From positions 1 through 39,079 of the forward strand of contig JAFGRC010000079.1 in assembly GCA_016935355.1 (NCBI GenBank): a stretch of DNA of 39,079 bases, in the 5' to 3' direction. The stretch is from Bacteroidales bacterium. GTDB taxonomy: Bacteria; Bacteroidota; Bacteroidia; Bacteroidales; UBA10428. Made by a program: the position numbers and the translations under genes. This document shows, piece after piece, positions 4,469-29,362 of this stretch. The first letter of the stretch is position 1, and every line of letters begins with the position of its first letter. A model generated the notes under the pieces. The model worked only from the letters and a program-made list of their open reading frames with translations, was not told the DNA's origin and searched no databases.

Positions 4469-4515
4469 ATGATCACGGTATTCTGTGGGTATGGCTGTGA
4501 ATATCTTCTTTTTGC

Positions 4516-4523
4516 TATTTTTG
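4516..4523 (+). promoter_or_regulatory. Possible -7 promoter element of the porE-like gene
   Basis: TATTTTTG fits TAnnTTTG and lies 65 bp before the chosen ATG at 4589, downstream of the glnN terminator. No convincing -33 TTTG is seen at the right distance. Confidence 0.4.
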
Positions 4524-4588
4524 TTTTTATATTACTTTTACATACGAAGCTTGTTCTCTTATCGTTTATCAATGAAACAAAGATACCC

Positions 4589-6586
4589 ATGAGAATTTTG
4601 CAGTATTTGCTTGTTTGGATCGTTACCCTGTCATTTTCAACAGGATTATGCGCACAAAACAAGAAGTCCATCAGGGCATATGAGACTTTTAACGCAGGGG
4701 AATATTACGTCGCAATCGACCAGCTTAAAGACGCTTATCAAAGAACGACCGACAGGGATGAAAAGCTCCACATCGCTTTTTATGTGGCAGAATCCTACCG
4801 GATAACCGACAATCCGGCACAGGCAGCGCTCTGGTACAGCAAAGTGGTTGCCCGAGATTATGGGAATCCGCTTTCCATTTTGTATTATGCAGATGCCCTG
4901 CTCAAGAATGAAGAATATGAGGAGGCTAAAGCACAATACCAGCGATATAAAGGAATTGTCCCCGGTGATCCGCGTGCCTCCGATGGCATCCTGTCATGTG
5001 AATATGCACTGCAGTGGATCGAACAGCCAACAGGTTACCAGGTTGAAGAAATGAAATTTCTCAACTCCAGATACGATGATTTCAGCCCGTATTATTCAAA
5101 GGATGATTATCAGGAACTTTTTTTCACTTCATCACGCGATGAAGCTGCCGGAAAAAGGGAACATGGGGCAACAGGACAGGAATTTGCCGATATATTTTAT
5201 TCCGCTATGGACAATAAAGGCAAATGGAGCACACCCCTGCCCCTTGGTCCTTCTGTGAATACGGACGCTGAAGAAGGAACTCCCGTATTTTCTGCAGATT
5301 ACACCACCATGTATTTTACGCGTTGTAATATAAGCAAACGGAAAACAATGGGCTGTGAGATCTTTCAGGCGGCCAGGGACGGGGAGCGGTGGACCAATGT
5401 GAGGTCACTGCAGCTTGGTCCGGATTCCATAGTAATCGCTCATCCGGCAATTTCCCGTGATGATCTGATCTTGTACTTCGTTTCCGATATGGAAGGCAGT
5501 ACCAGAACGCCAGAAGGCAGAAACAGCAAGGATATCTGGATGATTACCCGTACAAGTCCCAACGCTGAATGGGGCAATCCGGTCAACCTGGGTACTGCTG
5601 TCAACACACCCGGAGAAGAGCTTTTCCCTTATGTTCATGCTGACGGAACACTGTATTTCTCGTCTGATGGTCATATCGGCATGGGGGGACTGGATATCTT
5701 CAGAGCTGAGAAAAATGAAAGCGGACAGTGGACTGTTGAAAATATGAGGTATCCGATCAATTCCCCGGCCGATGATTTCGGTATTGTTTTTGAAAATGAC
5801 CGTGAAAGCGGGTATTTCAGTTCCTCAAGAAAGGGGAGGACCGGTGCCGATATATACTCATTTTTATTGCCTCCGTTAAGATTCAACGTCATTGGTGTTG
5901 TAAAGGATGAAAAAAGCGATGAAGTGATCCCTGATGTTCTTGTTAAATCCATTGGAAGTGACGGGATCACTCTGGAAACAAACACCGGAAACAACGGAAC
6001 CTTCAGGTTCAATCTCAATCCCGGTACTGATTATGTGTTCATTTCGGAAAAAGAGGGCTACCTGAAGGGTAAGGAACGGGAATCTACCAAAGGACTGTCA
6101 CAGAATGCTGAATTCAGGACCGAAATTTACATGGCTTCCATAGAAACACCAGTAGAAGTGGAAAATATCTTTTTTGACCTTGACAAGGCAGACCTTCGTC
6201 CCGAATCCATGGTTGCTCTTGACAGACTCGTGGAAACTCTTAATGATAATCCCAGCATCGTTATTGAACTCGGTTCACATACCGATTCAAGGGCAAGCAA
6301 TGAATATAACGATGACCTTTCAAGAAGAAGAGCCCAGTCTGTTGTAGACTATTTGATTGAAAAAGGAATATCGGGAGACCGGTTGCTGGCAAAAGGTTAT
6401 GGTGAAACACAGCCGAAAACAGTCGATAAAAAAGATCATGATGCTTATTCTTTTTTGCCAGTCGGAACCGTTCTCACGGAAAGTTATGTAAACAGTCTGG
6501 GAGACGAGGACCGGCAGGAGATGGCACATTTCCTGAACCGCCGTACGGAATTTAAAGTACTGCGTACGGATTACAACCAGGAATAG
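4589..6586 (+). CDS. PorE-like OmpA-family protein (TPR, PD40 propeller, CarboxypepD-like, OmpA)
   Basis: The frame is open from 4412, but I place the start at 4589 (665 residues). There a clean signal peptide begins, MRILQYLLVWIVTLSFSTG, with cleavage likely near the CAQ at 21-23; upstream codons run through the glnN terminator. Domains in order: TPR-like helices (about 25-135), a PD40/WD40-like propeller with repeated YFSSDG/FFTSSRDE-type blades (about 140-430), a carboxypeptidase-regulatory-like fold (about 435-520), and a C-terminal OmpA peptidoglycan-binding domain (about 525-665) with FFDLDKADLRPES and HTDSRASNEYNDDLSRRRA. This is the architecture of PorE, a periplasmic/outer-membrane component of the type IX secretion system in Porphyromonas gingivalis. 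Paralogues with this architecture occur, so PorE orthology is probable, not proven. No other core T9SS gene adjoins it. Confidence 0.85.
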   Translation: MRILQYLLVWIVTLSFSTGLCAQNKKSIRAYETFNAGEYYVAIDQLKDAYQRTTDRDEKLHIAFYVAESYRITDNPAQAALWYSKVVARDYGNPLSILYYADALLKNEEYEEAKAQYQRYKGIVPGDPRASDGILSCEYALQWIEQPTGYQVEEMKFLNSRYDDFSPYYSKDDYQELFFTSSRDEAAGKREHGATGQEFADIFYSAMDNKGKWSTPLPLGPSVNTDAEEGTPVFSADYTTMYFTRCNISKRKTMGCEIFQAARDGERWTNVRSLQLGPDSIVIAHPAISRDDLILYFVSDMEGSTRTPEGRNSKDIWMITRTSPNAEWGNPVNLGTAVNTPGEELFPYVHADGTLYFSSDGHIGMGGLDIFRAEKNESGQWTVENMRYPINSPADDFGIVFENDRESGYFSSSRKGRTGADIYSFLLPPLRFNVIGVVKDEKSDEVIPDVLVKSIGSDGITLETNTGNNGTFRFNLNPGTDYVFISEKEGYLKGKERESTKGLSQNAEFRTEIYMASIETPVEVENIFFDLDKADLRPESMVALDRLVETLNDNPSIVIELGSHTDSRASNEYNDDLSRRRAQSVVDYLIEKGISGDRLLAKGYGETQPKTVDKKDHDAYSFLPVGTVLTESYVNSLGDEDRQEMAHFLNRRTEFKVLRTDYNQE

Positions 6587-6613: not shown

Positions 6614-7117
6614 TTATTTGAATCCAATATCCGAGGTTGATTCCACATTGCTCTGATGCCGGGCGCGGTCGTATATGTAGAAATCATATCTTATGGTATC
6701 GTACGGGGGTGTGATGAAATAATAAATGACCAAACTGATTTCTCCTTTAATCGTTTTGTTTTGTCCGATACGATCCAGCTTTTCGTTATAACGGATCTGA
6801 TATTGAAGGGTATCACCGGGTATCTGACTGTATGACCCGTCGATTTTTTCAAACGGGATCAGGTAAAAATTAATGGAATCGCCGGTTCCGCCGGGTCCCG
6901 TTTTGGCTCCCAGGTCCGCATCACCATCAATGAAATCAAATGTGAGCTCACCGACCTTAATTATATTGCTTAATGTATCGATTTCAGAAAGTTGAAAGTC
7001 CTTAAAAGTAATGTAAGGGACTTCACTTACCTTTTCAAACGGCTCACAGGTTGTAACAGCACCTGCAAACAGTATGACAAATCCGGAGAACAAAAACGAC
7101 TTTCTCATTGCAACCAT
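6614..7117 (-). CDS. Small secreted protein or lipoprotein of unknown function
   Basis: This 167-residue protein starts with MVAMRKSFLFSGFVILFAG; Met4 (7108) is an equally good start. The hydrophobic segment is followed by AVTTCEPFEK. Cys24 could be a lipidation site, but the -1 residue is Thr rather than the usual Gly/Ala/Ser, so lipoprotein status is uncertain. The mature part is acidic and beta-rich with the block LTFDFIDGDADLGAKTG, a pattern I associate with uncharacterised Bacteroidota envelope proteins. No catalytic motif is visible. It lies 27 bp after der and is the last gene of the glmM-to-der run. It converges on the porE-like gene with only 27 bp between stop codons. Function unknown. 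Confidence 0.7.
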   Translation of the reverse strand: MVAMRKSFLFSGFVILFAGAVTTCEPFEKVSEVPYITFKDFQLSEIDTLSNIIKVGELTFDFIDGDADLGAKTGPGGTGDSINFYLIPFEKIDGSYSQIPGDTLQYQIRYNEKLDRIGQNKTIKGEISLVIYYFITPPYDTIRYDFYIYDRARHQSNVESTSDIGFK

Positions 7118-14364: not shown

Positions 14365-17300
14365 TTATATCTTTATTCCCATAAACAATACATCATCAAT
14401 CTGGTCATAGTTTTCCTTCCATTGGTTAAAGGAGCTGCTTACATGATTGTATTGTTCTTCCATAGATTTGTCATGAATATCCTGCAACAGGTTCTTTAAC
14501 CTGACCATCTTGAATTTTTTACCCATTGGTCCGCCAAACTGATCGGAATACCCGTCCGAAAACATGTATATGATATCACCCTTGCTCAGCTGTATGCCCT
14601 CATCCATGAATTCATTATCCTCCCGGTCATAATGACCCCCGACTGAACTGCGACTGCCTTTTATGAAGACTTCCTCGCCGTTCCTGTAAATGATCATGGG
14701 ACGCATGGCTGAAGCATACCGTACATAGTATGTTTTCAGATCGATCTCGCAAACGATGATATCCATTCCGTCACTGGGTTTTGTCCCGTCATCCAGGTTC
14801 TGATTGAGCATTTTGCTCAGTTCAGAATCAAGTGCCTTTAGTGCCTGTGAAGGAGATTGACACGCTTTGCGTGTACAAATATCCTTGATCAGTGTTGAAC
14901 CGATCATCGACATAAAGGCTCCGGGAACACCGTGTCCCGTTGAATCGGCACAAACGATGACGAATTTGTGCTCATTGATCCTGTCAAACCAGTAAAAATC
15001 GCCGCTGACAATATCTCTGGGACTGTAAAATACAAAACATCCCGAGAAGTATTGCTGCATTTTTTTAACAGGCGGTAACAGGCTGGTCTGGATCCGCTTT
15101 GCATAGTTAATGCTGTCGGTAATGTCCCTGTTCTTGATCTCGATCACTTCCTTCTGCTCAACAACTTCTTTGGTCCTCGCTTCAAGCTCCCTTTCCAAAT
15201 ATTCCTGTAACTGCTTCTGTTTTCTTTCCCTTATTTTAATATAGAAATATATGGAAAGGAAAACCACTAAAACAGATAGTGCGATAAACCAAAAAGTTTT
15301 CCAGAAGGGCAGCTTGACCCTTATTGTGAAGGAAGCCGGTATTTTCTCGGTAAGTCCTTCATTGCTGTAAGACCTGACATAGAAAGTATATGTGCCGTCC
15401 TCTATTCTCGGGTATGTGGCATAATTCAGATTGCTGATGTCAGACCAGTCAAGATCATAACCTTCAAGTTTGTACTGATATGTCACGCTTTGCGGATCGC
15501 TGTAATCCAGACCAATGAAATCGATCCTGAGTTTATAGATGCTATAGGGAAGAATGATCTCCCGGTTAAAATCATACACCCGGTCAGAGATAAGAAGGCC
15601 TGTAATATTGGTGAACGGAGGCTGCCGGTCAGTAATTTCCCGGTCCGGATCATAAACCAGCAATCCTTCGGTAGTCCCGAACAAGGTCCTGCCCGAACGG
15701 TCAGTAAATACTGCATTTTGATTGCAATCACCCGTAATGCCAATGTTTACATCGTATACACTTACCTTGTAAGTTTTTATATTGATCCTGCTGATGCCCA
15801 GTCTGTGTCCCACCCATATATTCTGATTACCTGTATAAACCAGACTGTAGCAAAAGTTTGATTTTAATCCTGTTTCTTCACTGAACCGGTAGATTGAATC
15901 GCCGTCAAAATATAAAATGCCGTCACCGTATGTTGCAGCCCAAATTCCTCCGTTTTCATCCTGGACTATTGACATGAAATCCAGTTCAGCAGAGGTTGCC
16001 GGATACAGATTCACACTGCCGCTTTCTTCAACGAACAGATACTGATAAATTCCGCTTGCCTGTGTGGCAAAAAGAAGTTTCCCCTGACGATCAATAAAGA
16101 CATGCTGAATGTTGTTGTGTGGTAATCCTTCAGCTGTCGTAAAATGTAACACACCGGAATAATCGTGATCCAGAATATAGATCCCGTCTTTCGTGCCCAG
16201 GTAAATATGTGCTGCATCTGCAGCTATGGAATTAACGGATCTTCCGGGTGAATTTGTACTGTAAGGTATTGCCCGAAGGACGGATGTCGGAAGATGCAAC
16301 GCAAATAATCCGCTGTTCTCCGTTCCGATCAGCAGATTGTCATTGTTCTCCCGCAAAGCAGTCACCCTGTCGGCCGGCAATCCGTTAATCTTAACTGTCT
16401 TCTGGTCCGGTCCGCCTTCCACCCTGTAAAGGCCTTCCCTTCCTCCCAGGTAATAAGTATCATCATCGGTTACAAAAACCGATTGAATGTCATTGTCAAG
16501 GGCTGTTTCTTTAAAAGTATAAATGGAAAAAGCCTGGGGTATCAGCAAATTTAATCCTCCCCCATAGGTGGCGATCCAGATATTTCCTTCAAGGTCCTGA
16601 AATACTTCCTTAACAAGATTGCTTGTCAATCCGTTATCCGTACTAAAATGATATATTTCGTCAGATTGTCCGGGAGCACCGGAAATCCGTAACCTGTAAA
16701 CCCCATTGCGCAGTGAGCTCAACCATAAGGTTCCGTCCGGATCCTCATAAACGGACTGAATATTCTCATGTCCGAGGTTGAGTCCGGCCCCTACTGTTGA
16801 TATTTCATAATCCCTGCCATCAACCGACAGTTTGAACAATCCCTGATCTTCCGTTGCAATCCAGTAGGCATCTTCACCGTCAACTTTTTGAATATCCTGA
16901 ACTTTCGTATATTGAAGCTCAGGTACTGCCAGATTGAATACTGCTTCGTTACCCTGTCCGGAAAGCTCGTATATGGCAAGACCTTCCTGCTTTCCAAGCA
17001 ACAGCAGATCATCCGAAAGCAACAGGGAAGTGTACAGGTACTGCTCTATTCCCGCGACAGCGGAAATTTCTCCCGAGGAGGAATTCAACAGGAAGATGCC
17101 GTTACTTTGTGTTGCAAAGATCATTTTGCCGTCATTTAGCTCTGCAAATCCTGTTATCAGGCTTATAATCTCATCACCTGTCTTGATGATCCTGACATCC
17201 TCACCATCATAGCTGATGATGTCTCCACTTTGGTATCCGAACCATAAAGTGCCCCCGCTGTCTTTAAAACTGATGGCAACCACTGCACCGGCAATGGAAT

Positions 17301-17529
17301 CCTGAATGATGTCCGTTGCAAATTCAAAACCGTCGAACCGGCAAAGACCTTCTCCGGTCCCTGCCCAGATAAAGCCTTTTGCATCCTGGTTAACAGTATA
17401 GACAAAAGGGTGCGAAATACCTTCCCGGACCCCGTATTCCCTGATCCTATATTCCTGTGAAATACCTGAACTGCAGGCAAAAATTAGTGCCAGTATAAAT
17501 ATCAGATTGTTGAATCGTCTGTACATCAT
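14365..17529 (-). CDS. Propeller-sensor SpoIIE/PP2C-family serine phosphatase
   Basis: This 1054-residue membrane protein starts with a signal peptide (about 1-25). Some 640 residues of Reg_prop two-component-regulator propeller repeats follow, with recurring blades such as GFIWAGTGEGLCRFDG, GTLWLSSLRNGVYRL and GNIWIATYGGGLN. A Y_Y_Y domain (about 675-738), one membrane helix (about 743-763), a coiled coil (about 765-810) and a cytoplasmic PP2C/SpoIIE domain (about 815-1054) complete it. Phosphatase metal motifs are intact: RDIVSGDFYWF, CADSTGHGVPGAF, FSDGYSDQFGG and the terminal DDVLFMGIKI. The outer half resembles hybrid two-component sensors, but the output is a phosphatase rather than a kinase. 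By analogy it would dephosphorylate an anti-sigma-antagonist-type protein; no such partner is encoded in the window. It follows the unknown secreted protein by 9 bp and ends the adhesin run. Confidence 0.92.
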   Translation of the reverse strand: MMYRRFNNLIFILALIFACSSGISQEYRIREYGVREGISHPFVYTVNQDAKGFIWAGTGEGLCRFDGFEFATDIIQDSIAGAVVAISFKDSGGTLWFGYQSGDIISYDGEDVRIIKTGDEIISLITGFAELNDGKMIFATQSNGIFLLNSSSGEISAVAGIEQYLYTSLLLSDDLLLLGKQEGLAIYELSGQGNEAVFNLAVPELQYTKVQDIQKVDGEDAYWIATEDQGLFKLSVDGRDYEISTVGAGLNLGHENIQSVYEDPDGTLWLSSLRNGVYRLRISGAPGQSDEIYHFSTDNGLTSNLVKEVFQDLEGNIWIATYGGGLNLLIPQAFSIYTFKETALDNDIQSVFVTDDDTYYLGGREGLYRVEGGPDQKTVKINGLPADRVTALRENNDNLLIGTENSGLFALHLPTSVLRAIPYSTNSPGRSVNSIAADAAHIYLGTKDGIYILDHDYSGVLHFTTAEGLPHNNIQHVFIDRQGKLLFATQASGIYQYLFVEESGSVNLYPATSAELDFMSIVQDENGGIWAATYGDGILYFDGDSIYRFSEETGLKSNFCYSLVYTGNQNIWVGHRLGISRINIKTYKVSVYDVNIGITGDCNQNAVFTDRSGRTLFGTTEGLLVYDPDREITDRQPPFTNITGLLISDRVYDFNREIILPYSIYKLRIDFIGLDYSDPQSVTYQYKLEGYDLDWSDISNLNYATYPRIEDGTYTFYVRSYSNEGLTEKIPASFTIRVKLPFWKTFWFIALSVLVVFLSIYFYIKIRERKQKQLQEYLERELEARTKEVVEQKEVIEIKNRDITDSINYAKRIQTSLLPPVKKMQQYFSGCFVFYSPRDIVSGDFYWFDRINEHKFVIVCADSTGHGVPGAFMSMIGSTLIKDICTRKACQSPSQALKALDSELSKMLNQNLDDGTKPSDGMDIIVCEIDLKTYYVRYASAMRPMIIYRNGEEVFIKGSRSSVGGHYDREDNEFMDEGIQLSKGDIIYMFSDGYSDQFGGPMGKKFKMVRLKNLLQDIHDKSMEEQYNHVSSSFNQWKENYDQIDDVLFMGIKI

Positions 17530-17538
17530 CCATTACAA

Positions 17539-18516
17539 TTATCTGGATTTCTCGACTGTAATGTCGTATTTATATTTTGGCACACCACCAATCGGTATCA
17601 CATAGAAAGGCAAAAGCTCGCCGATCTGGTTTCTGACGTTCACGACAACATTGTTGTTCTTAACGGCAGGAGATTTTCGTTTTATAAACTGTATATCAAG
17701 AGATGTGTTCTTTTCTTCTTCAAAAATCGTGAATTCGTCCTCAATCCAGTGGTCTTCACCTGAAACTTTGCTCATCTGGCTTTTACGGGCGACAGATACC
17801 GTCCGGATAAATCCGTCACTGTCCCAGTCAAAATTTGACAGCTTCACTGATATGGTGCGGTTATCAACAAACGGATAGATGTGTGAAACTTCATTCGGAT
17901 CGTCATACATCCGGAAAGAATATTCATATGCAAATGCATTGGCACCTTCAATTGACTTGTTATTGTCGGGCATGGTGGAAAGATAATACCGGTAAAGATT
18001 GCCGTCATCACCCGATGTGCCGTCCAGAATGATCTTAAAAACATATCCGTCGAAATCCTCTACGAATTCTCCTTCTGACGGATTGAACGGTCCGAATGTA
18101 TACCAGTTTTTATCATAAGCAGGATCCACTCCGAATGATTTTGAAGCAAGCAGGTTCCCGCTCTTATAATTTCCTGCAGGTGATGTCTCCTGCGCATCAT
18201 CATGCGTATAGCACTCCCGTCCCCCGTAAACCGAAAACGTCATTCTCGTATCAAATACTCCGTTGATCTCATCGATATCCCCTCCCGTATCAGGATCGTA
18301 TACCCTGATGTATACAGGCTGGCTAAATCCTTTTGGTATCAGAAAGAAAAAAGTCTGGGAAAAATCATCATCTCCCCAGGATGTTTCTGCCCTTGGGCCA
18401 AAAGTCATGAGATACGGAATATTTTCGTCTCCTGCCGGTACGGGTTGTGCGTTGATACCCAATTCCACTGCCGCAATCAGTAATAACAATACAAATAATC
18501 TCATACGTCCGGACAT
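17539..18516 (-). CDS. Secreted protein of unknown function in the adhesin cluster
   Basis: I do not recognise this protein. The frame is open from 18567, but the signal peptide MRLFVLLLLIAAVELGINAQ makes Met at 18516 (MSGRMRLF, 325 residues) or 18504 the likely start. The mature part is acidic, rich in aromatic residues and predicted all-beta. It contains FFFLIPKGFSQPVYIRVYDPDTGG near its start, which suggests a jelly-roll or Ig-like fold, and a KYKYDITVEKSR tail. There is no lipobox, no membrane segment after the signal, and no CHU_C or Por sorting domain, so it is probably periplasmic or released into the outer-membrane leaflet space. It lies 9 bp before the SpoIIE phosphatase gene, suggesting coupled expression and possibly a role as ligand or accessory of that sensor (inference). 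Confidence 0.75.
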   Translation of the reverse strand: MSGRMRLFVLLLLIAAVELGINAQPVPAGDENIPYLMTFGPRAETSWGDDDFSQTFFFLIPKGFSQPVYIRVYDPDTGGDIDEINGVFDTRMTFSVYGGRECYTHDDAQETSPAGNYKSGNLLASKSFGVDPAYDKNWYTFGPFNPSEGEFVEDFDGYVFKIILDGTSGDDGNLYRYYLSTMPDNNKSIEGANAFAYEYSFRMYDDPNEVSHIYPFVDNRTISVKLSNFDWDSDGFIRTVSVARKSQMSKVSGEDHWIEDEFTIFEEEKNTSLDIQFIKRKSPAVKNNNVVVNVRNQIGELLPFYVIPIGGVPKYKYDITVEKSR

Positions 18517-18669
18517 TTTATATACACTATAATAGCTATACGATAAAACGCTGCATAAGATACACATCTTCTTAATTTTCTTTGTTTATCAGTATTTATG
18601 ACGACTCCCTCCTGATCCGTTTATTTCTCTGCGGACTGTCTGGATCAACCTGTCCTCCTTCCGGAAATA
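18517..18669. other. Largest gap inside the adhesin run
   Basis: This 153-bp gap (102 bp if the longer start of the downstream frame is used) separates the PKD protein gene from the unknown secreted protein gene. It holds a 6-bp inverted repeat, TGATCC (18613-18618) with GGATCA (18642-18647), around a 23-nt loop and without a T run. No exact TAnnTTTG box was found on the minus strand. A second promoter for the last two genes could lie here, but the sequence does not show one clearly. Confidence 0.4.
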
Positions 18670-20100
18670 TCAGTCTTTTTCCAGAACCACTATTTTTCGT
18701 GTTACACATTTCTTTTCAAACATTGAATCAAAATTTTCAGCAGGACTCGTAAGTCCCAGCTCTACAACGTATATTCCCGGCCTGCTGTATATGTGCCTGG
18801 CTTCGACAGATGCTGCCCTGCCGCCATCGCCAAAATTCCAGTAATAGCCTCCGATCTCAAATTCCTTGAAAAAGCTTTCCTGTCCGCTGAAAGTGACCGG
18901 CTCACCGACAAAAACGCTGTCCGGTGCAGTTATATATGGTTGTTCAATATTTTCCACAACCAGCCTGTAACTGGCCTGACTGAAATACACCTCGTTGGTA
19001 AGTTTATCGATCACATTTAATTCCACATTATAGATGCCTGTAGACGGATAACAATGATCAACCCTGAGTGATCTGACTTTTGTCCCGTCACCCAGATCCC
19101 ATTCATAAGCAAAGGCTGTTGTATCCAGTTCTGCATTGTTTGATTCATAGAAGATGTAACAATAGCTGTTCTCTTCCTGCGGCTGGCAAGCCGAAAATGT
19201 GGGAATGGTCGAATAAACCTGAAGAATATCCGGAGAACCTGCCCGGTCAGAAACAAAATAACCTGTATCCATTGCCGGATTCATGATCAGGCCATAGTCG
19301 TCATAATCTGAGTTAATGGGATCCGGCAGGACCACAGGAATGCCCCATTGACCGTTGAAGTATTCAGAATAGTAAATTTCCAGGTCTCCTTCCTTTTTAT
19401 ATCCCCTGGAAGCAAAAAACAACCTGCCATTTTCATGCAGAAAAGGAAAAACTTCATTCTCCGGAGTGTTAACAGTATTCCCAAGATTCTCAGGTTTGCT
19501 CCAGGTTCCGTTTTCCATGCGGGTTACATACAAATCAAATCCTCCCGTACCCGAAGGGTCATTGCTGCAAAAGAACATTTGCATTCCGTCGGGTGAGAGG
19601 CAGGGGTACCCGACATTGCAGTCCGTACTGTTATAAGGAAACGGTTCGACATTTGTCCACTGTCCATTAACCAGCTCAGCAGTAAAGATACCAAAGGTCG
19701 TATCCTCACGGACCTGCTTGCGCAGACCGGGGAACGGATCAATACTCCGCGTAAAATACATTTTTTTTCCGTCCCTGGTGAACGTGGCGGGACCTTCAAA
19801 CAAACGTGTCGTGATATCCCTTGAGAATAACTGCGGGTACTCAAATTTACCGGATCTTTTTATCCCGGTTATGTACAGGTTGGTCAGTGGATTGTCCTGC
19901 ATATCGGTATAGCTGACAAACCATTCATTTTTTCTGTCAGAACAAAAAACAAGGCCGTTTTCATAAAATGCAGGTGCAAGCTCTTTTGCCGGGGTATTTA
20001 CAGAAAGGGGAATTGCCTCGTAGAACTGCTGGGAAAAAAGTGCACTGCTGCAAACAAATGCCAGCATGATGACAGCGTATGTTATTTTCTGAATGGTCAT
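18670..20100 (-). CDS. PD40-repeat and PKD-domain secreted protein
   Basis: This 476-residue protein begins with a signal peptide (MTIQKITYAVIMLAFVCSSA, cut near Gln24). Residues about 30-310 form a PD40/WD40-like propeller with repeats such as LVFCSDRKNEWF, MFFCSNDPSGTGGFDLYV and RLFFASRGYKKEGDLEIYY. Two PKD-type Ig domains follow, one around 315-395 (YEWDLGDGTKV) and one around 395-470 (YYWNFGDGGRA). The propeller is the same type as in the PorE-like protein at 4589-6586, but here PKD domains replace the peptidoglycan-binding OmpA domain. It starts 6 bp after the PorP/SprF gene, so a T9SS-linked periplasmic or outer-membrane partner role is plausible by context. The precise role is unknown. 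Confidence 0.85.
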   Translation of the reverse strand: MTIQKITYAVIMLAFVCSSALFSQQFYEAIPLSVNTPAKELAPAFYENGLVFCSDRKNEWFVSYTDMQDNPLTNLYITGIKRSGKFEYPQLFSRDITTRLFEGPATFTRDGKKMYFTRSIDPFPGLRKQVREDTTFGIFTAELVNGQWTNVEPFPYNSTDCNVGYPCLSPDGMQMFFCSNDPSGTGGFDLYVTRMENGTWSKPENLGNTVNTPENEVFPFLHENGRLFFASRGYKKEGDLEIYYSEYFNGQWGIPVVLPDPINSDYDDYGLIMNPAMDTGYFVSDRAGSPDILQVYSTIPTFSACQPQEENSYCYIFYESNNAELDTTAFAYEWDLGDGTKVRSLRVDHCYPSTGIYNVELNVIDKLTNEVYFSQASYRLVVENIEQPYITAPDSVFVGEPVTFSGQESFFKEFEIGGYYWNFGDGGRAASVEARHIYSRPGIYVVELGLTSPAENFDSMFEKKCVTRKIVVLEKD

Positions 20101-20106
20101 TTTCTG

Positions 20107-21015
20107 TCAGAATATTGTCGGATTTGAAGCTTTAATGCGGTATCCGAAATTATATTCAATGGCAACCTCAACTGAACTCCTGTTATATTCATTAATACCT
20201 TTGAATCCGTAGTCATATGCAAAGCCGACCTTCAACTGGTATGTTATTTTGTAATCCATGATCATAATCAGTGCGCCTTTGCTTCTGTAAGAAGCTCCCA
20301 CGCGCAGTATATCTTTATACAACAGACTTATTCCGCCATCAGCGATGAGACCCGACCCCTTATCATACTCCAGCAAAGCTGCAGGATGTATCTTCCAGTT
20401 GTCAGCAATTCTTGCTTTTATACCTGCCGTAAGGTAATATGCATATTTGCTGAAATCATGGTAAGGAATTACTTCACCGGCAACGTTTGCCTCATAACCC
20501 AGAATCATAGGCACCGAAAGTCCTGCATAAAAACTGTTTGTATAGTAGTATAACCCAAAGCCGAAATTGGGGAGTAAATAATCATCCGTATTTTCATTGA
20601 AAATATAATCATCATTGCCCAGATCGATCTGCTCATAAGATCCCGCGGACACACCAGCTTTCAGTCCCAGGGCAAGTTTACCGGGTCCAAGCTCCAACCT
20701 GTGTGCATAATTCAGATAAAACCCCGTGTTTTTACGAAGGCCCATGCTTTCATTCATAACGAGGATGCCCAGACCCATTTTTGTGTTGCGCAATGGTGTA
20801 TGAAGACTGACAATATTATAAGCGGGAGCCCCTTCAAATCCGATCCACTGGCTGCGGTGTGACAGACCTATGCTGAGCATTTCAAGACTGCCGCTGTATG
20901 CAGGGTTCATGGCCAGACCATTGAAACCGTAATGGCTGTAAAGGATAGCTTTTTCCTGCGCTGCCGCAGGTAATGCCATGAATATTATAAATATGATACA
21001 GGTTGCAATGCGCAT
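20107..21015 (-). CDS. PorP/SprF family type IX secretion membrane protein
   Basis: This 302-residue outer-membrane beta-barrel protein has a signal peptide (about 1-19, MRIATCIIFIIFMALPAAAQ). Next come AILYSHYGFNGLAMNPAYSGS and LSIGLSHRSQWIGFEGAP, the family hallmark (NPAYAG and RxQW). The rest is alternating beta-strands ending VEVAIEYNFGYRI. In Flavobacterium johnsoniae SprF is needed for surface delivery of the adhesin SprB, and PorP-like proteins dock type B CTD cargo. Here the gene starts directly after the stop of the giant CHU_C adhesin, with no base between TAA and ATG. The pair therefore mirrors the sprB-sprF arrangement, and this barrel probably serves that adhesin specifically. 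The family call is firm. Confidence 0.94.
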   Translation of the reverse strand: MRIATCIIFIIFMALPAAAQEKAILYSHYGFNGLAMNPAYSGSLEMLSIGLSHRSQWIGFEGAPAYNIVSLHTPLRNTKMGLGILVMNESMGLRKNTGFYLNYAHRLELGPGKLALGLKAGVSAGSYEQIDLGNDDYIFNENTDDYLLPNFGFGLYYYTNSFYAGLSVPMILGYEANVAGEVIPYHDFSKYAYYLTAGIKARIADNWKIHPAALLEYDKGSGLIADGGISLLYKDILRVGASYRSKGALIMIMDYKITYQLKVGFAYDYGFKGINEYNRSSVEVAIEYNFGYRIKASNPTIF

Positions 21016-24000
21016 TTATCTAAGAATTTCAACAAATGACTTAAAAATTACTTCCCTGTCCCTGCCCGGCACTTTCACTTCAGCTATATAAAAATAAGTA
21101 CCTTCAGGCAACTCGACCCCGTTCATGTTTCGGCCATCCCAGAGATCGGAACCGGTATAATCATCTGACTCATAAACCAGTATACCCAGACTGTTAAAAA
21201 TTTTAATTTTGATCCATTCCGCATTTGCAGAACCTATTTCAAAAAAGTCGTTCTTCGTGTCTCCGTTTGGTGTAAACCCTTTACCGATGACAAGTGGCGT
21301 TACCATAATTACGACACTGTCGCTTTTTGCATCGCATACACCATTTATTACGGTCCAGCGCAGTAAATTGTTATCATCAAGATTCGTTACTCCGGTGACC
21401 GGGGCCGATGGATCGTTGAAAACACCATTCCCCGAAACAACCTGCCATGATCCGGTACCTACATCCGGTGGCAATGCTTCAAGCGTTGTGGCATAAGTAA
21501 ACTCAAGCACCTGATCAGGACCTGCATCCGGAACCTGCGGCTGTTCATAAAAAATGACTTCCACCTGATCCTCATCAGCACACTGCCAGTTGGTTTCGGT
21601 CCACGTAAAGGTAAACGGACCGTAACTGCCAACGGTGACAATGGCCGCTGGATTTTCAGGATCATCAAAATCCGTATTCGTTGCGGTCCATAAACCATCT
21701 GATCCTGTTACGCTTTTTATCGCTCCAAGCGTAAATACATTACCGCATACTTCGCTGTCTGCACCTGCATCCGCCACAGGAACCTCAAACACAACAGCTT
21801 CTGCAAGACCAGTATTCCCCGTCAGATCGGCATAACACAAGCTGTCGTCCACAATGGAAACCATGGTAAGCTGGCTGTTCCCGGTCATCATGAATGCAAT
21901 CGAATCGGGTGATGAAGCAATATTGTCCTTTGACTGTGTCAGGGAACCGTTACCAATTGAGACCTCAAAGGGACCGTTTGCTCCCGAAACAGTAAATGCC
22001 ACATACAGGGTTTCACCGGCACACAGGGTGTCCCTTGCAGTGATCACATCACCGGAAGGAAGCGGATTGATCCGGATCTCTACCAAATCACTGGTATCAA
22101 TACATTCCTGTCCCGAAAAGGAAGAAAACACAATCCTTCTGAAATAGGTTAAATCCGACAGGGATCCGGTCTGATAATCCATTCCGTCATTCGGAATTTC
22201 AGATGCAGTCACCCAGTCGATACCGTTGCTGCTTTCTTCCCATAAATAGGCATATTCACCTGTTTTCCCATCAACAGGCAGGGTTCCTCCAAGGGATTTT
22301 TCTGTATTGAAGCAGGTATACTGTAAAGCGGCACCCAAAATGCTGTTGTTCTTAATGGCCGGATATACCGTGATATTAATGGTATCACTGATGCTGGTAC
22401 AAATATCGGAATATACTTTTCGTGCAAACAGCATGGAATTTTCGAGTTGAACGGACGTATAGGAAGCCAGGCCAGCTATACCCGATGCCATATTCCATTC
22501 CGCAGATCCTTGCTGCTGCTGGATCCACTCATAAGTGATGCCATTCAGTCCTCCGCTTGCAGGTGAAGCTATAAAAGGATCAGGGGCGGTAAACTGGCAA
22601 ATAATCTGATCATCCAGTCCCAGTTCATTGATGATGTAAGGAATGACCGTCAGTCCCAAAGCATCCGAAGTGTCGATGCATGCATTGTAGATACCTGATA
22701 TCACGATCCGCCTGAACTCAGTATTGGCCTCAACAATCTCATCCGGCAAATAGTCCTCATTGAATGCATCCGTAATATTCTGCCATGATCCGGAAATACG
22801 CTGCTGCCATTCATAATTATAACTTCCCGACCCGCCTGAAGGCTGTTCGCCATTGATTGTCAGCGGGATATCTCCTGCACAATACCGGCTCGAATCCGTT
22901 ATCAGTATGTTGTTTGCGATTGCCGGCAGCACACTGATTGTTTTCACAGTGGCTGAAGTGTCGATACAGGCATGATCATTACCTGAATAGACGATCCTCC
23001 GGAATAATGTCGTCTGGCTGAGTTGTCCGGGATCATACTGCAACACATTGCTTGACGCCACATCCTGCCATGAACCTGTTTCCGGCCGGCTCTGCCATGA
23101 ATACATATAACTGCCGTCACCTCCACCCGGGTTTGTCGCATTCAGCAGTCCGGGTCCCAGATTTTCACAGATCACGGTATCCTCAGTTATGAATTGGTTG
23201 TTTGTAATGTCCGGCAGCACGGTGATCGTAATGTAACCGCTTGTATCATGACAATAAGCTGTTGAACTTACCAGTCGCCTGTAATTACTGGTTGCTGTGA
23301 GTATGCCCGGATCAAACATTATGTTTTCATATACGGGATTTCCGATATTGTTCCAGTCCGATAAATTTCCGCTGATCTGCCACTGGTATTCAAATTCGCT
23401 GTTACCTCCCGAAGGCAGTGAGCCGGTCAGCTGGTCCCCATGATCCTCAAAGCATATCGTATCGTTGCCCGCAATAATGTTATTTGAAATGGCCGGGTAC
23501 ACGAATATTTCAATGATCCGGCTTGTATCGGCAATGTCAGCTGAGTTTACGATCCTTCTGAAATATGTTGTCTGATAAAGCGCTTCAGACTGAAAGGCGG
23601 TAAGTTCAGGAGTGCCGAATGCACTGATCCATGTTGTCTGATCGGTACTTTGTTCCCACAAATAACTGTAAAAACCATCGCCTCCTTTCGGCCAGGTTCC
23701 CGTGATCGGTTCCGGAACCTGTCCGGCACACAGGGTATCGACCCCCCTGATGGTATTGAACAGGAATCCCGTCAGGGGCATCAGCAGGTTTTCGAGTGAC
23801 GCTCCTTCATACCCTCCGTTGCCCGTATGAAAAATGCAGGGGGATGAAACATAACCCTGTTGTCCTTCGGTCAGGTCTACTGTGATGGAAGGAATTGAAG
23901 TGCCTGAATGCCAGAACACCCCGCCACTGCCACCACCACCTGATCCGGTACAGTTATCGTTTGTACTTCCGCCATCACCGCCCTTTGCGTAAATGTTAAA

Positions 24001-25137
24001 AGCATCCCCGTAAACCGTGGCATCGATCAGTATTGTTCCTCCTGCACCTCCACCGCCACCGCTTCCTGCAGCCGTACCTGCATTTTCGCCATCAGCCAGT
24101 ATGGAATTACCGTTACCATCAATGATCTCAGTGATCAGAATAACAATGCCTCCGCCATCACCACCTTTTGAAGCTGTAGCAGATGATGATTTAACACCCG
24201 AACCGCCGCCGCCTCCCATAATGATCTGACGCCTTACGGGAGTGTAGATCAGATAACATCCGTATCCGCCCCATGCAGGTGTAAGATACGCTCCACAGTT
24301 AGATGACTGCTGTCCGCCATCACCTCCGAGGCTATAATTGCTTCCACCGGCACCTCCAGAAAACAGGCCATTACCTGCACCTCCACCATTCAGTGCAAAG
24401 CCGGTGCCTTTGGTATAAGGCCAGTTCACCGTTATGATCCCTTCACCTTTGTTACCCGAACGATTCAGGTGTGTGGGAAGAAAATATAGCGTATCCACGA
24501 CGGCTCCGTCTATATCCTGCCTGCATCCGGCCGTATAGTTCTCGGAAGGGACCGCACCTCCCCTGAATCCCTGATGACTGACATCAATGTTGGCATTCAG
24601 CTTAATGGAATCCATCCCGATAATGGCTACAACACCTCCCGTTGCGCCATCCCAATCCCTGGCAGTTACCGTTCCGGTCACCGTGACCGTTTCTCCTTCT
24701 ATAAACCTGACCAATTGTATCTTTTCTCCCTGATCATATGTATTTGAAAGGTTGTCTGTGAAAACGACAAATTTTTTTCCTTCGCTTTCAACAATTTCAT
24801 CCAGCTGCAATACTTCAAATTTACCGGTATTGTTAAACGTCTTATGCACCCTTACATTCTTCGTCAGGAAATTTTCCCAGCCGGTATCATCTTCGTCATT
24901 CAACTCTCCCCCCGTTATCTGTATGATGAGGACCTTATCTCCGGGTTCAAAATATGCCAGTTCCGCCGTTTCAATGACACCTACCCGGTCGGGCAGCACG
25001 GCATCTACAGCAAGATAGTGGTTCACAATGCCCGAAATGGAAATATCCTGTGAAAATCCGCGAGAAAGAAATAGAATTGTGTTTACAATAATGAAGATCA
25101 GCCTTTTCAATCTTTTATCAGGTTGGTTATTACTCAA
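21016..25137 (-). CDS. Giant T9SS-exported adhesin with CHU_C (type B) C-terminal sorting domain
   Basis: This is a 1373-residue surface protein. A signal peptide (about 10-30, LIFIIVNTILFLSRGFSQ) leads into a beta-rich N-terminal domain, then a very Gly-rich region (about 245-410, with GGGGSG, GSGGGGGAGG and GGDGGS tracts). Six tandem repeats of about 94 residues follow (about 461-1028), each with a Cys after the linker, PSGGSGSYNYEWQ-like and fRRIV strands, CIDTS and a P.I.NN linker. Further Ig-like domains fill 1030-1285. The last 88 residues (1286-1373) are the gliding-motility-associated CHU_C domain: GFTPNGDTKNDFF, VYES, LWDG and LPEGTYFY. That domain directs export and attachment by the type IX system. 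Ligand unknown. It is followed with zero spacing by a PorP/SprF gene, its likely dedicated helper, and preceded by a sensor kinase 10 bp upstream. Confidence 0.93.
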   Translation of the reverse strand: MSNNQPDKRLKRLIFIIVNTILFLSRGFSQDISISGIVNHYLAVDAVLPDRVGVIETAELAYFEPGDKVLIIQITGGELNDEDDTGWENFLTKNVRVHKTFNNTGKFEVLQLDEIVESEGKKFVVFTDNLSNTYDQGEKIQLVRFIEGETVTVTGTVTARDWDGATGGVVAIIGMDSIKLNANIDVSHQGFRGGAVPSENYTAGCRQDIDGAVVDTLYFLPTHLNRSGNKGEGIITVNWPYTKGTGFALNGGGAGNGLFSGGAGGSNYSLGGDGGQQSSNCGAYLTPAWGGYGCYLIYTPVRRQIIMGGGGGSGVKSSSATASKGGDGGGIVILITEIIDGNGNSILADGENAGTAAGSGGGGGAGGTILIDATVYGDAFNIYAKGGDGGSTNDNCTGSGGGGSGGVFWHSGTSIPSITVDLTEGQQGYVSSPCIFHTGNGGYEGASLENLLMPLTGFLFNTIRGVDTLCAGQVPEPITGTWPKGGDGFYSYLWEQSTDQTTWISAFGTPELTAFQSEALYQTTYFRRIVNSADIADTSRIIEIFVYPAISNNIIAGNDTICFEDHGDQLTGSLPSGGNSEFEYQWQISGNLSDWNNIGNPVYENIMFDPGILTATSNYRRLVSSTAYCHDTSGYITITVLPDITNNQFITEDTVICENLGPGLLNATNPGGGDGSYMYSWQSRPETGSWQDVASSNVLQYDPGQLSQTTLFRRIVYSGNDHACIDTSATVKTISVLPAIANNILITDSSRYCAGDIPLTINGEQPSGGSGSYNYEWQQRISGSWQNITDAFNEDYLPDEIVEANTEFRRIVISGIYNACIDTSDALGLTVIPYIINELGLDDQIICQFTAPDPFIASPASGGLNGITYEWIQQQQGSAEWNMASGIAGLASYTSVQLENSMLFARKVYSDICTSISDTINITVYPAIKNNSILGAALQYTCFNTEKSLGGTLPVDGKTGEYAYLWEESSNGIDWVTASEIPNDGMDYQTGSLSDLTYFRRIVFSSFSGQECIDTSDLVEIRINPLPSGDVITARDTLCAGETLYVAFTVSGANGPFEVSIGNGSLTQSKDNIASSPDSIAFMMTGNSQLTMVSIVDDSLCYADLTGNTGLAEAVVFEVPVADAGADSEVCGNVFTLGAIKSVTGSDGLWTATNTDFDDPENPAAIVTVGSYGPFTFTWTETNWQCADEDQVEVIFYEQPQVPDAGPDQVLEFTYATTLEALPPDVGTGSWQVVSGNGVFNDPSAPVTGVTNLDDNNLLRWTVINGVCDAKSDSVVIMVTPLVIGKGFTPNGDTKNDFFEIGSANAEWIKIKIFNSLGILVYESDDYTGSDLWDGRNMNGVELPEGTYFYIAEVKVPGRDREVIFKSFVEILR

Positions 25138-25147
25138 AAATAATATG

Positions 25148-28100
25148 TTATTTCATCACATCCCGACTGCTGTCCCTAAAAACAGGCAGCTCGACTAAAA
25201 ATGTCGTACCTACATTAACCTCTGTCTTAAACGTAATGTTGCCCTGAAAAGATTCAATAATATTTTTTGTTATGGATAAACCCAGTCCCATACCACTTGA
25301 TTTGGTGGTGAAACTGTGGGTAAAAAGTTTCTTTTGTATTTCTTCCGACATACCCTTTCCGTTGTCCTCAATGCTTACCAGTGCTCTGCCATCCTTCACC
25401 TCCAGCCTGATTTCAATCCTGCCTTTCTGAAATTCCGGAATGGCCTGAATGGCATTTTTGATCAGGTTGATGAATGCTCTTGACAGTTGCTCCTGGTCCG
25501 CATAAACCCTTACATCATCCTGTTCCGGCTTAAACGAAATATCCACGTTTTCGGTATTTGAAAACAATGACAGGGCAGACCGGATCGCTTTCACCAGACT
25601 TATGTCTGTACTGGTAGCTTTGGGCATTTTGGCAAAATTTGAAAATTCTGATGCGATAAATGAAAGGTTATCAATCTGTTCGATCAAGGTGCGGGTGAAT
25701 TTTTCAAGATATTCATCAAAATTTTCCCTGTTGTCTTTCCATGTTCGTTGTAAATGCTGTATACTCAACTTCATGGGTGTTAACGGATTTTTAATCTCGT
25801 GTGCGATCTGCTTGGCCATTTCGCGCCATGCAATTTCCCGTTCCGACCGGGAAAGCATTTCCACACTTTTTGCAAGCTCTTTCACCATCCGGTTATATTC
25901 ATTCACCAATGACGCAATTTCATCTCTTTTATTATAGGAAATTTCTTCATTCATTTTGCCAAGTTTGATCTCTCCGAATTTTTGCTGGATCAGTTTCAAC
26001 GGTAAAACGATCTGGTTGGAAATGAAGATGGTCATAATGAAAGTCAGCAACAGCAGCAGAACAAATATGTTCACCATTGCAACAATCAGGGTTGTTGTTT
26101 CATTTCGTTGTTCATTCTCCTTGGTAAAATACGGAAGGTTGAGAAACGCCAGCAGACTGTTTTCCGTATTTACAAACGGAACGTAGGCAGACAAAAATTC
26201 CAGATTCCCGATGTTTTCCTGGTGGATGTATTCAGGCTGTTTCTCCGTTACCATCTTATAATATGCAACAGGATCCATTTTACTGCCCATGATTCCCTGA
26301 TTAAAAATCTCTGCACGGGAAGTGGCCAGCATATTTCCTTCAGGATCATACAGGTTGATGTCAGTATAGAACACATCGGACAGACTGATCAGAAACTGGT
26401 TGAGGTTATCATACCCGTATCCCTGCCATGCGGGAGACAACCTGCTCAGTGTGGCCAGCATGTTGTGGAGCTCAAGATAAACCGACTGGATCTTTTCGCT
26501 TAAGTTATTATACTGGGTGGTCTTATACTGTTCAATGCTCAGATAAATCGTACCGCCACCGACCATCAAAAGGGAAAGCAATAAAATGGATATGATGGCC
26601 AGGCGGATCTTGTTTTTGAAATTAAAGGCCATGCCTTTACTGTATCTTGAAAAGTATCGGAAAGCCATGGATAATATAACAAGCAGGTAGTAGAACAGGA
26701 ATATATATGAAAACGAGATCAGCTGATCAAAGAAAGTGATCACAGGTTTGCTGATCATGATCACGTTTTCATTTGCAAAACGGTATATATAGTGTTCATA
26801 GCCATCAAATTTCTCGTATTCAATACTATTTACGCGTGAAATCAGACTGTCGGACACAGTCGAATCAAGCCCATAAGTGTTCAGGTTCAGGCTGTATTGA
26901 AAATCACCGGAACGAGACAGCAACTGACCTCTGTAATATTTGGCATAGGAATACTGCTGAAACAGTCCGGTTTCCTGGTATTTCTTATCCAGAAGCAATT
27001 CCGGGTAACCCAGCTCCTCAGCGATCAATCTCGACTCAAGCTCAAGATAGAAAACACCCTCAATGTCAGAATCCGGCATGGTCCAGGGAATTCTCCCCAG
27101 ATAGTGGATTCTTCCGTCAAGAATGTCCAGGTAATAAAAATTCATTTCCCCAAGTTTCATTCCGCCATTCTCGATAAGATTATCATAATAGTCATAGCAA
27201 TTGTACTTCAGTCTGGTAGGCGGGATCTCCAGCGTATCATAAGCCCTGCATTCAACCGGGTTTAATGTATATTTGCTCCAGTATCCGTTGAAATAACTTT
27301 TCTGCAGGTAGTTAATAATTTCTTCATAAGGTACATTACGATCGAACAAAAACCCGAACAATAGCTCATCCTGAACCATCTGATCATTTATGTCCTGCAA
27401 CAAATATTCCGCCACCGGGTCATGCTGTTCGGCGAGCTTTTCAGCCAGAACTTTCATATTACTACCTGTTTTTTGCCTGGTGACGTATGAAATGAATACA
27501 ACACTGTAAACCGAAAAAAAAATGAGTATCAAAACAAGCTGCGTATAATTATATGACAGAATTCCTTTAAAATGAATAAGGGCAAGTATGACAAACAGTA
27601 AAATAAAGGCAATATATGACCAGAAATCAAAAGAATAGGGTATGAGTATCAAAATCAGGAACAACGTTGTGGAAATGATCAGAAAGGTTCCCAGTATGGA
27701 TTGAATGCTGCATGATTCTTTACAGATCCTGAAGAATTTATCACACATGAACACAAGGGTGGCAAAATGCATGGCCATGATCAGCAAACTGAGGAATGTG
27801 TATGTATTGAGATTGGCGACATTAGAAATTTCAAAACTGATGGTTGAATGTAATATCAGGTTTGACAGTACGTAATGTGTATAAATAAAAACAATCGCAA
27901 TACTCAGTATAAATCCTGAGATCATTACGTACTCAGGCCGTTCAAGCTTATGGTCATAGAGACTTCCGGTAAACTTTAAATCCTGATTAAACTTAATCCC
28001 AAGAAAAAATAAAAGTGCTGCATTTATTAAAACATCACCAAGTGAAGGAAGCAATGATGAATGAGCAAATGGTACCGGACCAAAAAACTCAAGCTCATAG

Positions 28101-28876
28101 ATGTCTGCTGGAATACGATACCGGCATTGTAACCATCTGATCAAAATGAAAATCAGCGAAAGCAATAGCAAGGCCAGATTCCTGTTCCTTCCTCTTTTAA
28201 AAATACTAATGATATCGTTGATCAATAAAAGGATCGCAATCAAGAATATGAATAACAGCGCCGGGGAGAAATATTGTTCCAGTTGTGCAAATCTGAGTTC
28301 GTCCTTGTTGAACCTCACAGAAAATAAATAAATACCTTCCCAGTCGTAAATTGAATATGTGCCCTCAGTGGTTGTGGTAAGCACCTCGGTCGATTTTGGC
28401 AACCTGAGGTCTTCGTGAAAATTATTTTTCAGGAAGTCATTCTCATAGGGATATTCACTTTTTATTAGATACAATCCGAATGCCCTGACGGAATCATTGC
28501 TGTACTGCTTAATAACATACCAGCCGTTTGATATGAACTCAAAGCGTTTATAATCCAGAGCCTTTACGTTGAATGCAGTAAAAGCAATATTGTTATCCGA
28601 CCAGTATATCAGGCTGTCTTCATCATAAGCCAGTAATAAAATACCCTCGTCAGGAGGTATCAACATGCTTAATTCCCAGTTGGCTGCTTTCACCCGTTCA
28701 TGACAACGGTCAATTTCCTGAAACTTCTGCAGCAACTGTTTCTGTAATTTCCTGTGGTAACCGGCTCCGTAATGGAAATTATTTAAAATAGAATCACCTG
28801 TGATCCAGATCACAAAGATCGCAGCCAATATCAGAATAAATCTGAGAAAATACCGCTTATCTGGATTTGAATTCAA
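25148..28876 (-). CDS. Large multi-pass sensor histidine kinase (NtrY-like)
   Basis: At 1242 residues this is unusually long. A first helix (about 11-28) precedes an extracytoplasmic domain (about 30-200). Some seven further helices span about 203-465, a second outer domain about 470-730, helices near 735-758 and 777-800, a third outer loop about 800-925, and a last helix about 930-955. HAMP, a coiled coil and the kinase core follow. His1026 in AHEIKNPLTPMK is the phosphorylation site. The ATPase has the N box INLIKNAIQAI, VSIEDNGKGM and SSGMGLGLSITKNI. It should phosphorylate a response regulator, but none is in the window and no receiver domain is fused. It lies 12 bp after rlmH and 10 bp before the adhesin gene. 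The signal sensed is unknown. Confidence 0.92.
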   Translation of the reverse strand: MNSNPDKRYFLRFILILAAIFVIWITGDSILNNFHYGAGYHRKLQKQLLQKFQEIDRCHERVKAANWELSMLIPPDEGILLLAYDEDSLIYWSDNNIAFTAFNVKALDYKRFEFISNGWYVIKQYSNDSVRAFGLYLIKSEYPYENDFLKNNFHEDLRLPKSTEVLTTTTEGTYSIYDWEGIYLFSVRFNKDELRFAQLEQYFSPALLFIFLIAILLLINDIISIFKRGRNRNLALLLLSLIFILIRWLQCRYRIPADIYELEFFGPVPFAHSSLLPSLGDVLINAALLFFLGIKFNQDLKFTGSLYDHKLERPEYVMISGFILSIAIVFIYTHYVLSNLILHSTISFEISNVANLNTYTFLSLLIMAMHFATLVFMCDKFFRICKESCSIQSILGTFLIISTTLFLILILIPYSFDFWSYIAFILLFVILALIHFKGILSYNYTQLVLILIFFSVYSVVFISYVTRQKTGSNMKVLAEKLAEQHDPVAEYLLQDINDQMVQDELLFGFLFDRNVPYEEIINYLQKSYFNGYWSKYTLNPVECRAYDTLEIPPTRLKYNCYDYYDNLIENGGMKLGEMNFYYLDILDGRIHYLGRIPWTMPDSDIEGVFYLELESRLIAEELGYPELLLDKKYQETGLFQQYSYAKYYRGQLLSRSGDFQYSLNLNTYGLDSTVSDSLISRVNSIEYEKFDGYEHYIYRFANENVIMISKPVITFFDQLISFSYIFLFYYLLVILSMAFRYFSRYSKGMAFNFKNKIRLAIISILLLSLLMVGGGTIYLSIEQYKTTQYNNLSEKIQSVYLELHNMLATLSRLSPAWQGYGYDNLNQFLISLSDVFYTDINLYDPEGNMLATSRAEIFNQGIMGSKMDPVAYYKMVTEKQPEYIHQENIGNLEFLSAYVPFVNTENSLLAFLNLPYFTKENEQRNETTTLIVAMVNIFVLLLLLTFIMTIFISNQIVLPLKLIQQKFGEIKLGKMNEEISYNKRDEIASLVNEYNRMVKELAKSVEMLSRSEREIAWREMAKQIAHEIKNPLTPMKLSIQHLQRTWKDNRENFDEYLEKFTRTLIEQIDNLSFIASEFSNFAKMPKATSTDISLVKAIRSALSLFSNTENVDISFKPEQDDVRVYADQEQLSRAFINLIKNAIQAIPEFQKGRIEIRLEVKDGRALVSIEDNGKGMSEEIQKKLFTHSFTTKSSGMGLGLSITKNIIESFQGNITFKTEVNVGTTFLVELPVFRDSSRDVMK

Positions 28877-28888
28877 TTTGATTTTTGT

Positions 28889-29362
28889 TTATATATGATG
28901 ATAGGGTTCACCGTTCAGAATGGTCAATGCCCGGTACAATTGTTCAACAAAGACGAGCCGGGCCAGCTCATGTGAAAAAGTCATCCGTGAAAGCGCGATC
29001 ATATCCGGAACAGTATTATAAACCGCATCAGAAAATCCGTATGATCCGCCTATTATAAATCCAAGATGGCGTATTCCCTGGTTCATGGATTGCTGTATGA
29101 ATCCAGAAAAAGCCTCTGAACTCATCTGTTTTCCTTTTACATCAAGCAGCACGGGTAAATCAACATTTGACAATTCCTTCATGATCAGCCTTTCTTCACT
29201 TTCCTTATGCCTGCTTGCCGTCGAAACACCTGTTAAGCGCGGTTTACCAAGTGGTATCATCCTGAACGGGATATAATGCCTGATGCGCTTCTCAAATAAT
29301 ACATAGGCTTCCCGTAAGTTATCACGATCATTCTTCCCGATATAACATACTGAAATCTTCAT
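28889..29362 (-). CDS. rlmH: 23S rRNA (pseudouridine-1915 N3)-methyltransferase RlmH
   Basis: At 157 residues this is a full-length SPOUT-family methyltransferase. The trefoil-knot SAM site shows FIIGGSYGFSDAV (about 101-113), and the C-terminal block SRMTFSHELARLVFVEQLYRA with the terminal EPYHH is diagnostic. RlmH methylates N3 of pseudouridine 1915 in helix 69 of 23S rRNA on assembled 70S ribosomes, using S-adenosylmethionine. It is the first gene of the long minus-strand run. It is divergent from the DUF4783 gene, and the neighbouring DUF4783-nadC order is one I associate with rlmH in Bacteroidota. Identification is certain. Confidence 0.97.
   Translation of the reverse strand: MKISVCYIGKNDRDNLREAYVLFEKRIRHYIPFRMIPLGKPRLTGVSTASRHKESEERLIMKELSNVDLPVLLDVKGKQMSSEAFSGFIQQSMNQGIRHLGFIIGGSYGFSDAVYNTVPDMIALSRMTFSHELARLVFVEQLYRALTILNGEPYHHI

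Follow-up and report, generated by a model that had tools for sequence, protein, structure and literature searches.

A conserved five-gene cassette of Bacteroidota that may couple a static type IX secretion adhesin complex to a transmembrane phosphatase

The 39,079-nucleotide contig JAFGRC010000079.1 (C69) of Bacteroidales bacterium assembly GCA_016935355.1, analyzed over its whole length and referred to below as the window, raises the question of whether a run of seven minus-strand genes constitutes one envelope and signaling unit. The genome comprises 2.83 Mb in 173 contigs and is 94% complete. The run encodes RlmH, a histidine kinase, an adhesin of the type IX secretion system (T9SS), a PorP/SprF-like protein, a PD40 propeller protein with PKD domains (PD40-PKD), an unnamed secreted protein labeled UNK, and a propeller-SpoIIE phosphatase. 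An earlier note on this DNA had read these genes as a single module, and all seven were found in place with the domains it had assigned to them. Comparison with relatives strongly supports a core of five genes, adhesin–PorP–PD40/PKD–UNK–SpoIIE, with the kinase as a neighbor. The chance is judged to be about even that these five form one operon, whose products build a static adhesin complex on the surface and couple it, by way of UNK, to a transmembrane PP2C phosphatase.

The adjacency tally that the earlier note had called for was carried out on 40 regions from relatives, 80 named GTDB loci (uncultured Bacteroidales/Bacteroidota assemblies) and one locus from another order, with 102 distinct UNK loci after duplicate removal, and the five envelope/phosphatase genes were found to stay together in approximately 100 loci. 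UNK was present in 32 of 99 relatives. Conditional on the presence of UNK, through which the loci were largely gathered, SpoIIE was the next gene in 98 of the 98 loci with downstream sequence, the PD40-PKD gene lay directly 5' in 96 of 102, PorP occupied position -2 in 84 of 92, and the adhesin position -3 in 78 of 86. A check centered on SpoIIE agrees with the UNK-gathered sample: across the 99 relatives, the top full-length hits to the phosphatase lay beside UNK or at contig ends. Median gaps, taken from mechanical open reading frame (ORF) starts, were 136 bp for kinase–adhesin, 0 bp for adhesin–PorP, 3 bp for PorP–PD40, 84 bp for PD40–UNK and 14.5 bp for UNK–SpoIIE. In L176, a locus from another order, each of the four junctions between the five genes is a stop/start overlap. 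In one genome (G084) the unit is divided between two contigs, one carrying UNK–SpoIIE and the other adhesin–PorP–PD40. The cassettes of L057 and L146 contain two adhesin-PorP pairs (adhesin-PorP-PD40-adhesin-PorP-UNK-SpoIIE), and the second adhesin of L057 carries a LamG-like domain and an SprB repeat.

Seven secondary cassettes, all lacking the kinase, grouped together as a clade in the trees of SpoIIE, PD40 and PorP, though not in that of UNK, and the five genes duplicate as a unit. Gene-gene distance correlations do not tell co-evolution from shared descent, as EngA correlates comparably (0.90-0.93 with UNK, PD40 and SpoIIE). Gene order, co-duplication and occurrence in other orders bear out the proposed envelope/signaling module for adhesin–PorP–PD40/PKD–UNK–SpoIIE and not for the kinase.

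The kinase, previously placed at one end of the operon, comprises a multi-transmembrane N-terminus followed by sCache, HAMP, HisKA (HEIKNP) and HATPase domains. Its N-terminal 940 residues, the sensor half, were matched in 85 of 99 relatives compared with 32 for UNK, nearly always once per genome and mostly in genomes without the cassette. Of 40 kinase loci that were sampled, almost all in UNK-less genomes (three have UNK elsewhere), none had a cassette gene adjoining the kinase, and rlmH was directly 5' of it in 15. In the cassette-bearing locus L047, an AI-2E transporter gene intervenes on the kinase side. Furthermore, a candidate promoter box, TAnnTTTG, was present 5' of the adhesin in 68% of 62 loci versus 17% of shuffled sequences, at a consistent distance. 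The box was strongest at this position, depleted 5' of PorP and SpoIIE, and somewhat enriched 5' of rlmH and the kinase. Since it precedes the adhesin and is depleted before PorP and SpoIIE, the five genes probably have a promoter of their own, with read-through from rlmH and the kinase possible; sigma-70 and terminator scans were at chance level. An earlier seven-gene version of the reading, with kinase and phosphatase as two arms of one surface-sensing operon, accords with the kinase standing at position -4 from UNK, directly upstream of the cassette, in 46 of 67 loci with enough sequence and in several families. It is nevertheless highly improbable in view of the single-copy kinase of mostly cassette-less relatives, the kinase-less secondary cassettes, the promoter box separating kinase from adhesin, and the intervening gene in L047. 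Distribution, secondary cassettes and box position thus excluded the kinase from the core; it is an older neighbor that may feed into the cassette and is not required by it.

The adhesin matched CHU_C (3.1e-18) and the C-terminal type B sorting domain TIGR04131 (38.5 bits, cut-off 35), and contains Ig-like repeats and an AgmC-N-like N-terminal region (7e-51, below its cut-off). Against the AgmC gliding protein family (NF047640) it scored 173.4 bits over residues 37-419 for a cut-off of 275, which indicates a related region and not an equivalog. A PorP/SprF-like gene lies directly 3' of the sorting domain, the two genes abutting, and the adhesin is a predicted T9SS type B substrate with a cognate PorP/SprF-like carrier on which its export would depend. 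Genes for the T9SS translocon SprA and for the motor protein GldM are present in the genome. A T9SS adhesin with its carrier gene directly downstream is likewise found in SprB-SprF, where a Cys-X-Cys motif in the SprF C-tail forms a disulfide link to the moving GldK track (PMC12635249). In contrast, the C-tail of the cassette PorP has no Cys-X-Cys, the sole cysteine of the protein being residue 6 in the signal peptide, and the tails of relatives also lack the motif. A gliding adhesin of the SprB/SprF type was rejected on the basis of these missing cysteines; sustained movement is not expected, and a static complex is expected instead.

Static wall-anchored complexes have been proposed for Flavobacterium johnsoniae operons that combine a type B substrate, a PorP-like carrier and a PorE-like protein (PMC9143113, PMC12618676). 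The cassette shares with these operons a type B adhesin, a PorP/SprF-like carrier and a PD40-type PorE-like gene, and differs in adding UNK and the propeller-SpoIIE gene and, in the window, in a PD40-PKD protein without OmpA. The PD40-PKD protein resembles the propeller of PorE and CHU_0125, scoring 137 bits against the PorE family (NF052230; cut-off 600), with no OmpA peptidoglycan-binding domain. Because OmpA is present in its paralogues from the L057 and L176 cassettes, PorE-like descent is likely. UNK and PD40-PKD are presumably periplasmic, since they have signal peptides and no sorting domains.

The SpoIIE protein contains a signal peptide, a Reg_prop propeller, a Y_Y_Y domain, one transmembrane helix at residues ~746-764 and a C-terminal SpoIIE/PP2C domain; the propeller, described earlier as extracellular, should accordingly be periplasmic. 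The PP2C metal-binding motifs are intact (GDFYW 843, DSTGHG 862, SDGYSD 991 and DDVLF 1045), consistent with SpoIIE/PP2C membership and a predicted phosphatase activity. The match to SiaA (NF038263) reached 164.7 bits for a cut-off of 700 and was confined to the C-terminal cytoplasmic half (3e-48). In Pseudomonas aeruginosa, SiaA is a PP2C phosphatase that acts on the STAS-like SiaC and controls aggregation (PMC7647112). The cassette resembles SiaABC(D) in its PP2C/SpoIIE phosphatase with a matching cytoplasmic half (PMC7647112) and differs in its propeller sensor and in having no siaB or siaC in the operon. The genome contains six SpoIIE domains and nine SiaC-family genes. Full-length SpoIIE paralogues (28-32% identity) were rejected as cassette members, as they occur in other contexts, often beside TPR and ribD-like genes. 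In L221, L223-L230 and L233, a second propeller-SpoIIE gene (about 30% identical) directly follows genes for a ~780-residue TPR protein and a ribD-like protein, representing another SpoIIE module kept in many relatives.

UNK, with a mature N-terminus of QPVPAGDENIP, is 58-80% identical across the order. Mean identity over 22 main-locus genomes was 64% for UNK, close to EngA (67%) and above SpoIIE (47%), PorP (45%), PD40 (44%), the kinase (43%) and the adhesin (39%). An AlphaFold2 model from a deeper alignment (pLDDT 91.7, pTM 0.88), which superseded an earlier one (pLDDT 74.5), predicts an all-beta protein of two beta-sandwich domains; conserved acidic clusters are also present. No family match was obtained in Pfam, NCBIfam, PHROGs, PDB sequences or PDB folds. 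Assignment to a known family was rejected, as Foldseek TM-scores were at most 0.31 with only weak beta-sandwich likeness, the weak resemblances including the SIDT1/2 ectodomain, the DeCLIC N-terminal region and the calcium-dependent ColG collagen-binding domain. That UNK and PD40-PKD are mere assembly, calcium-binding or glycan-binding accessories of the adhesin, with the phosphatase a co-transcribed passenger, would suit the all-beta fold, the acidic clusters and the ColG domains among the nearest, weakly matching folds. This explanation is very unlikely, since UNK–SpoIIE linkage holds in 98 of 98 loci within the order and in 31 of 39 in other orders, including loci without an adhesin.

In order to follow UNK beyond the order, 395 genomes of the class and 395 of the phylum were sampled. 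UNK was present in 49 of the class genomes, spanning 22 genera. Among 39 class-level neighborhoods, 10 had the full five-gene order, including other orders of the class, 31 had SpoIIE after UNK, and 24 had a PD40 or PKD protein before it. UNK–SpoIIE occurred without an adhesin in about a third of loci (L269-L275, L277, L278, L280, L281, L284 and L287), and a PKD or PD40 protein with UNK occurred without SpoIIE in L298, L300 and L303; together these loci indicate that UNK links both halves of the cassette. In L298 (4595-10306), a ~1900-residue protein with no Pfam match is encoded a few genes 5' of the PKD-UNK pair, and L300 is similar. In the phylum sample, the majority of the distant matches were domains at the N-terminus of larger proteins (up to ~1650 residues), and those examined were fused to long PKD arrays. 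Genes nearby encoded either a HAMP cyclase or, together with a FecR-type protein, a HAMP histidine kinase; RR-SpoIIE genes lay near the UNK-PKD proteins of L167 and L168, with a STAS gene in L167. Adjacency, and for PKD proteins also fusion, thus ties UNK both to PKD proteins and to transmembrane signaling proteins. The operons of L167 (1233-19000), L168 and L170, all from distant Bacteroidota, comprise RR-SpoIIE, a HAMP cyclase or kinase, FecR and giant UNK-PKD proteins, and L167 also encodes a LysM domain.

These contexts bear on the direction in which such a system would operate. If control ran from inside to outside, UNK and the propeller-SpoIIE protein would sense a cue from the envelope or the environment that has nothing to do with the adhesin, whose complex would be an output, co-regulated with no physical relay. 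About a third of distant loci have UNK-SpoIIE pairs that stand apart from adhesin, PorP and PD40, which is consistent with this, as are distant Bacteroidota UNK-PKD proteins beside cyclases and kinases with no PorP. However, UNK is bound as tightly to PD40/PKD as to SpoIIE, including in PKD-array fusions and SpoIIE-less loci, and phosphatase-first control needs no UNK beside PD40; inside-out control is therefore considered unlikely. A broader proposal is put forward tentatively, at somewhat less than an even chance: UNK would found a new family of periplasmic adaptor domains, which join envelope proteins of the PKD/PD40 type to transmembrane outputs that can replace one another, whether PP2C phosphatase, nucleotide cyclase or histidine kinase. 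The cassette would then report T9SS adhesin status outside-in to the cytoplasm.

In the static-complex reading, the type B adhesin would leave through the T9SS and be retained by its PorP-like carrier, as is established for these families. The OmpA-less, PorE-like PD40-PKD protein could dock on PorP in the periplasm, and UNK could in turn connect it with the periplasmic SpoIIE propeller. A loaded or ligand-engaged adhesin might then switch the cytoplasmic PP2C domain, which would dephosphorylate a STAS/SiaC-type partner and change expression or surface behavior. The earlier idea of a surface structure made and sensed by one operon fits the five-gene module; the sensing is something we infer. 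Several points weigh against this reading. Finding the loci mostly through UNK raises its apparent linkage, and both the contacts along adhesin–PorP–PD40/PKD–UNK–propeller and the direction of signaling (adhesin sensed or adhesin controlled) are predictions. Furthermore, the adhesin cannot be the sole input, given UNK-SpoIIE pairs without it in several families, and the operon contains no cognate STAS/SiaC gene, the SiaC-family genes all lying elsewhere in the genome.

The adhesin–PorP–PorE-like part is already known. A search of open-access papers, to the exclusion of preprints and subscription journals, did not turn up the putative UNK–SpoIIE signaling arm, and none of these papers mentioned "SpoIIE" together with "type IX secretion". 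For the sensing of display or engagement of T9SS adhesins by cells, the nearest case found is PorA of Porphyromonas gingivalis, which passes a surface signal to PorXY–SigP (PMC7712824). In both systems a T9SS surface protein with a C-terminal domain (CTD) signals to a cytoplasmic pathway, in the cassette by prediction; PorA-PorY/PorX-SigP employs a histidine kinase, an extracytoplasmic function (ECF) sigma factor and a PorV-interacting CTD protein, compared with the phosphatase, PorP-type anchor and UNK of the cassette (PMC7712824). The cassette, small in size and conserved in many genomes, is a candidate for a relay that runs from adhesin to cytoplasm via a protein phosphatase, and UNK is a target without family assignment that is yet conserved nearly like an essential GTPase (EngA). 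The predictions are directly testable: periplasmic UNK, its binding to the propeller and the PKD protein, and an adhesin-dependent phosphatase output.

Table 1. Features of the cassette and its upstream neighbors in the window.
Feature	Coordinates	Strand	Evidence or remark
rlmH, 23S rRNA methyltransferase	28889..29362	-	PF02590 4.5e-46; housekeeping gene adjoining kinase
NtrY/AtoS-like histidine kinase, orphan, 1242 residues	25148..28876	-	Chromosomal neighbor, not core
Candidate Bacteroidota -7 promoter box TATTTTTG	25135..25142	-	TAnnTTTG enrichment in relatives
T9SS type B (CHU_C) adhesin, likely start TTG 25110 (ORF open to 25137)	21016..25110	-	
PorP/SprF-like outer-membrane shuttle/anchor	20107..21015	-	PF11751 3.6e-60, TIGR03519 215 bits
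PD40 propeller with two PKD domains, presumably periplasmic, PorE-like	18670..20100	-	Domain searches
UNK, unnamed conserved secreted protein, likely start 18504	17539..18504	-	No family match
Transmembrane propeller-SpoIIE phosphatase	14365..17529	-	PF07494 8.8e-27, PF07495 1.2e-12, PF07228 4.2e-21

Two start sites were revised. The adhesin probably starts at the TTG at 25110 (LKRLIFIIVNTILFLSRGFSQ), because this agrees with the alignment to relatives and because the called TTG at 25137 falls within the -7 box (25142-25135); the kinase-adhesin gap, earlier given as 10 bp, becomes about 37 bp. For UNK an ATG at 18504 is the most likely start, which widens the PD40-UNK gap from the about 102-153 bp proposed before to 165 bp. 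The adhesin start is apparently TTG in 35 of 60 loci, 25 of which have no ATG in the first 40 codons, and TTG is possibly a conserved weak start across relatives.

Elsewhere in the window, a plus-strand gene (4412-6586) encodes a PorE/Pal-like protein that combines PD40 and OmpA with a carboxypeptidase-regulatory-like domain and has no adjoining PorP gene. A minus-strand gene (6614-7117) encodes a 167-residue protein with no Pfam match that stays beside engA in many relatives.

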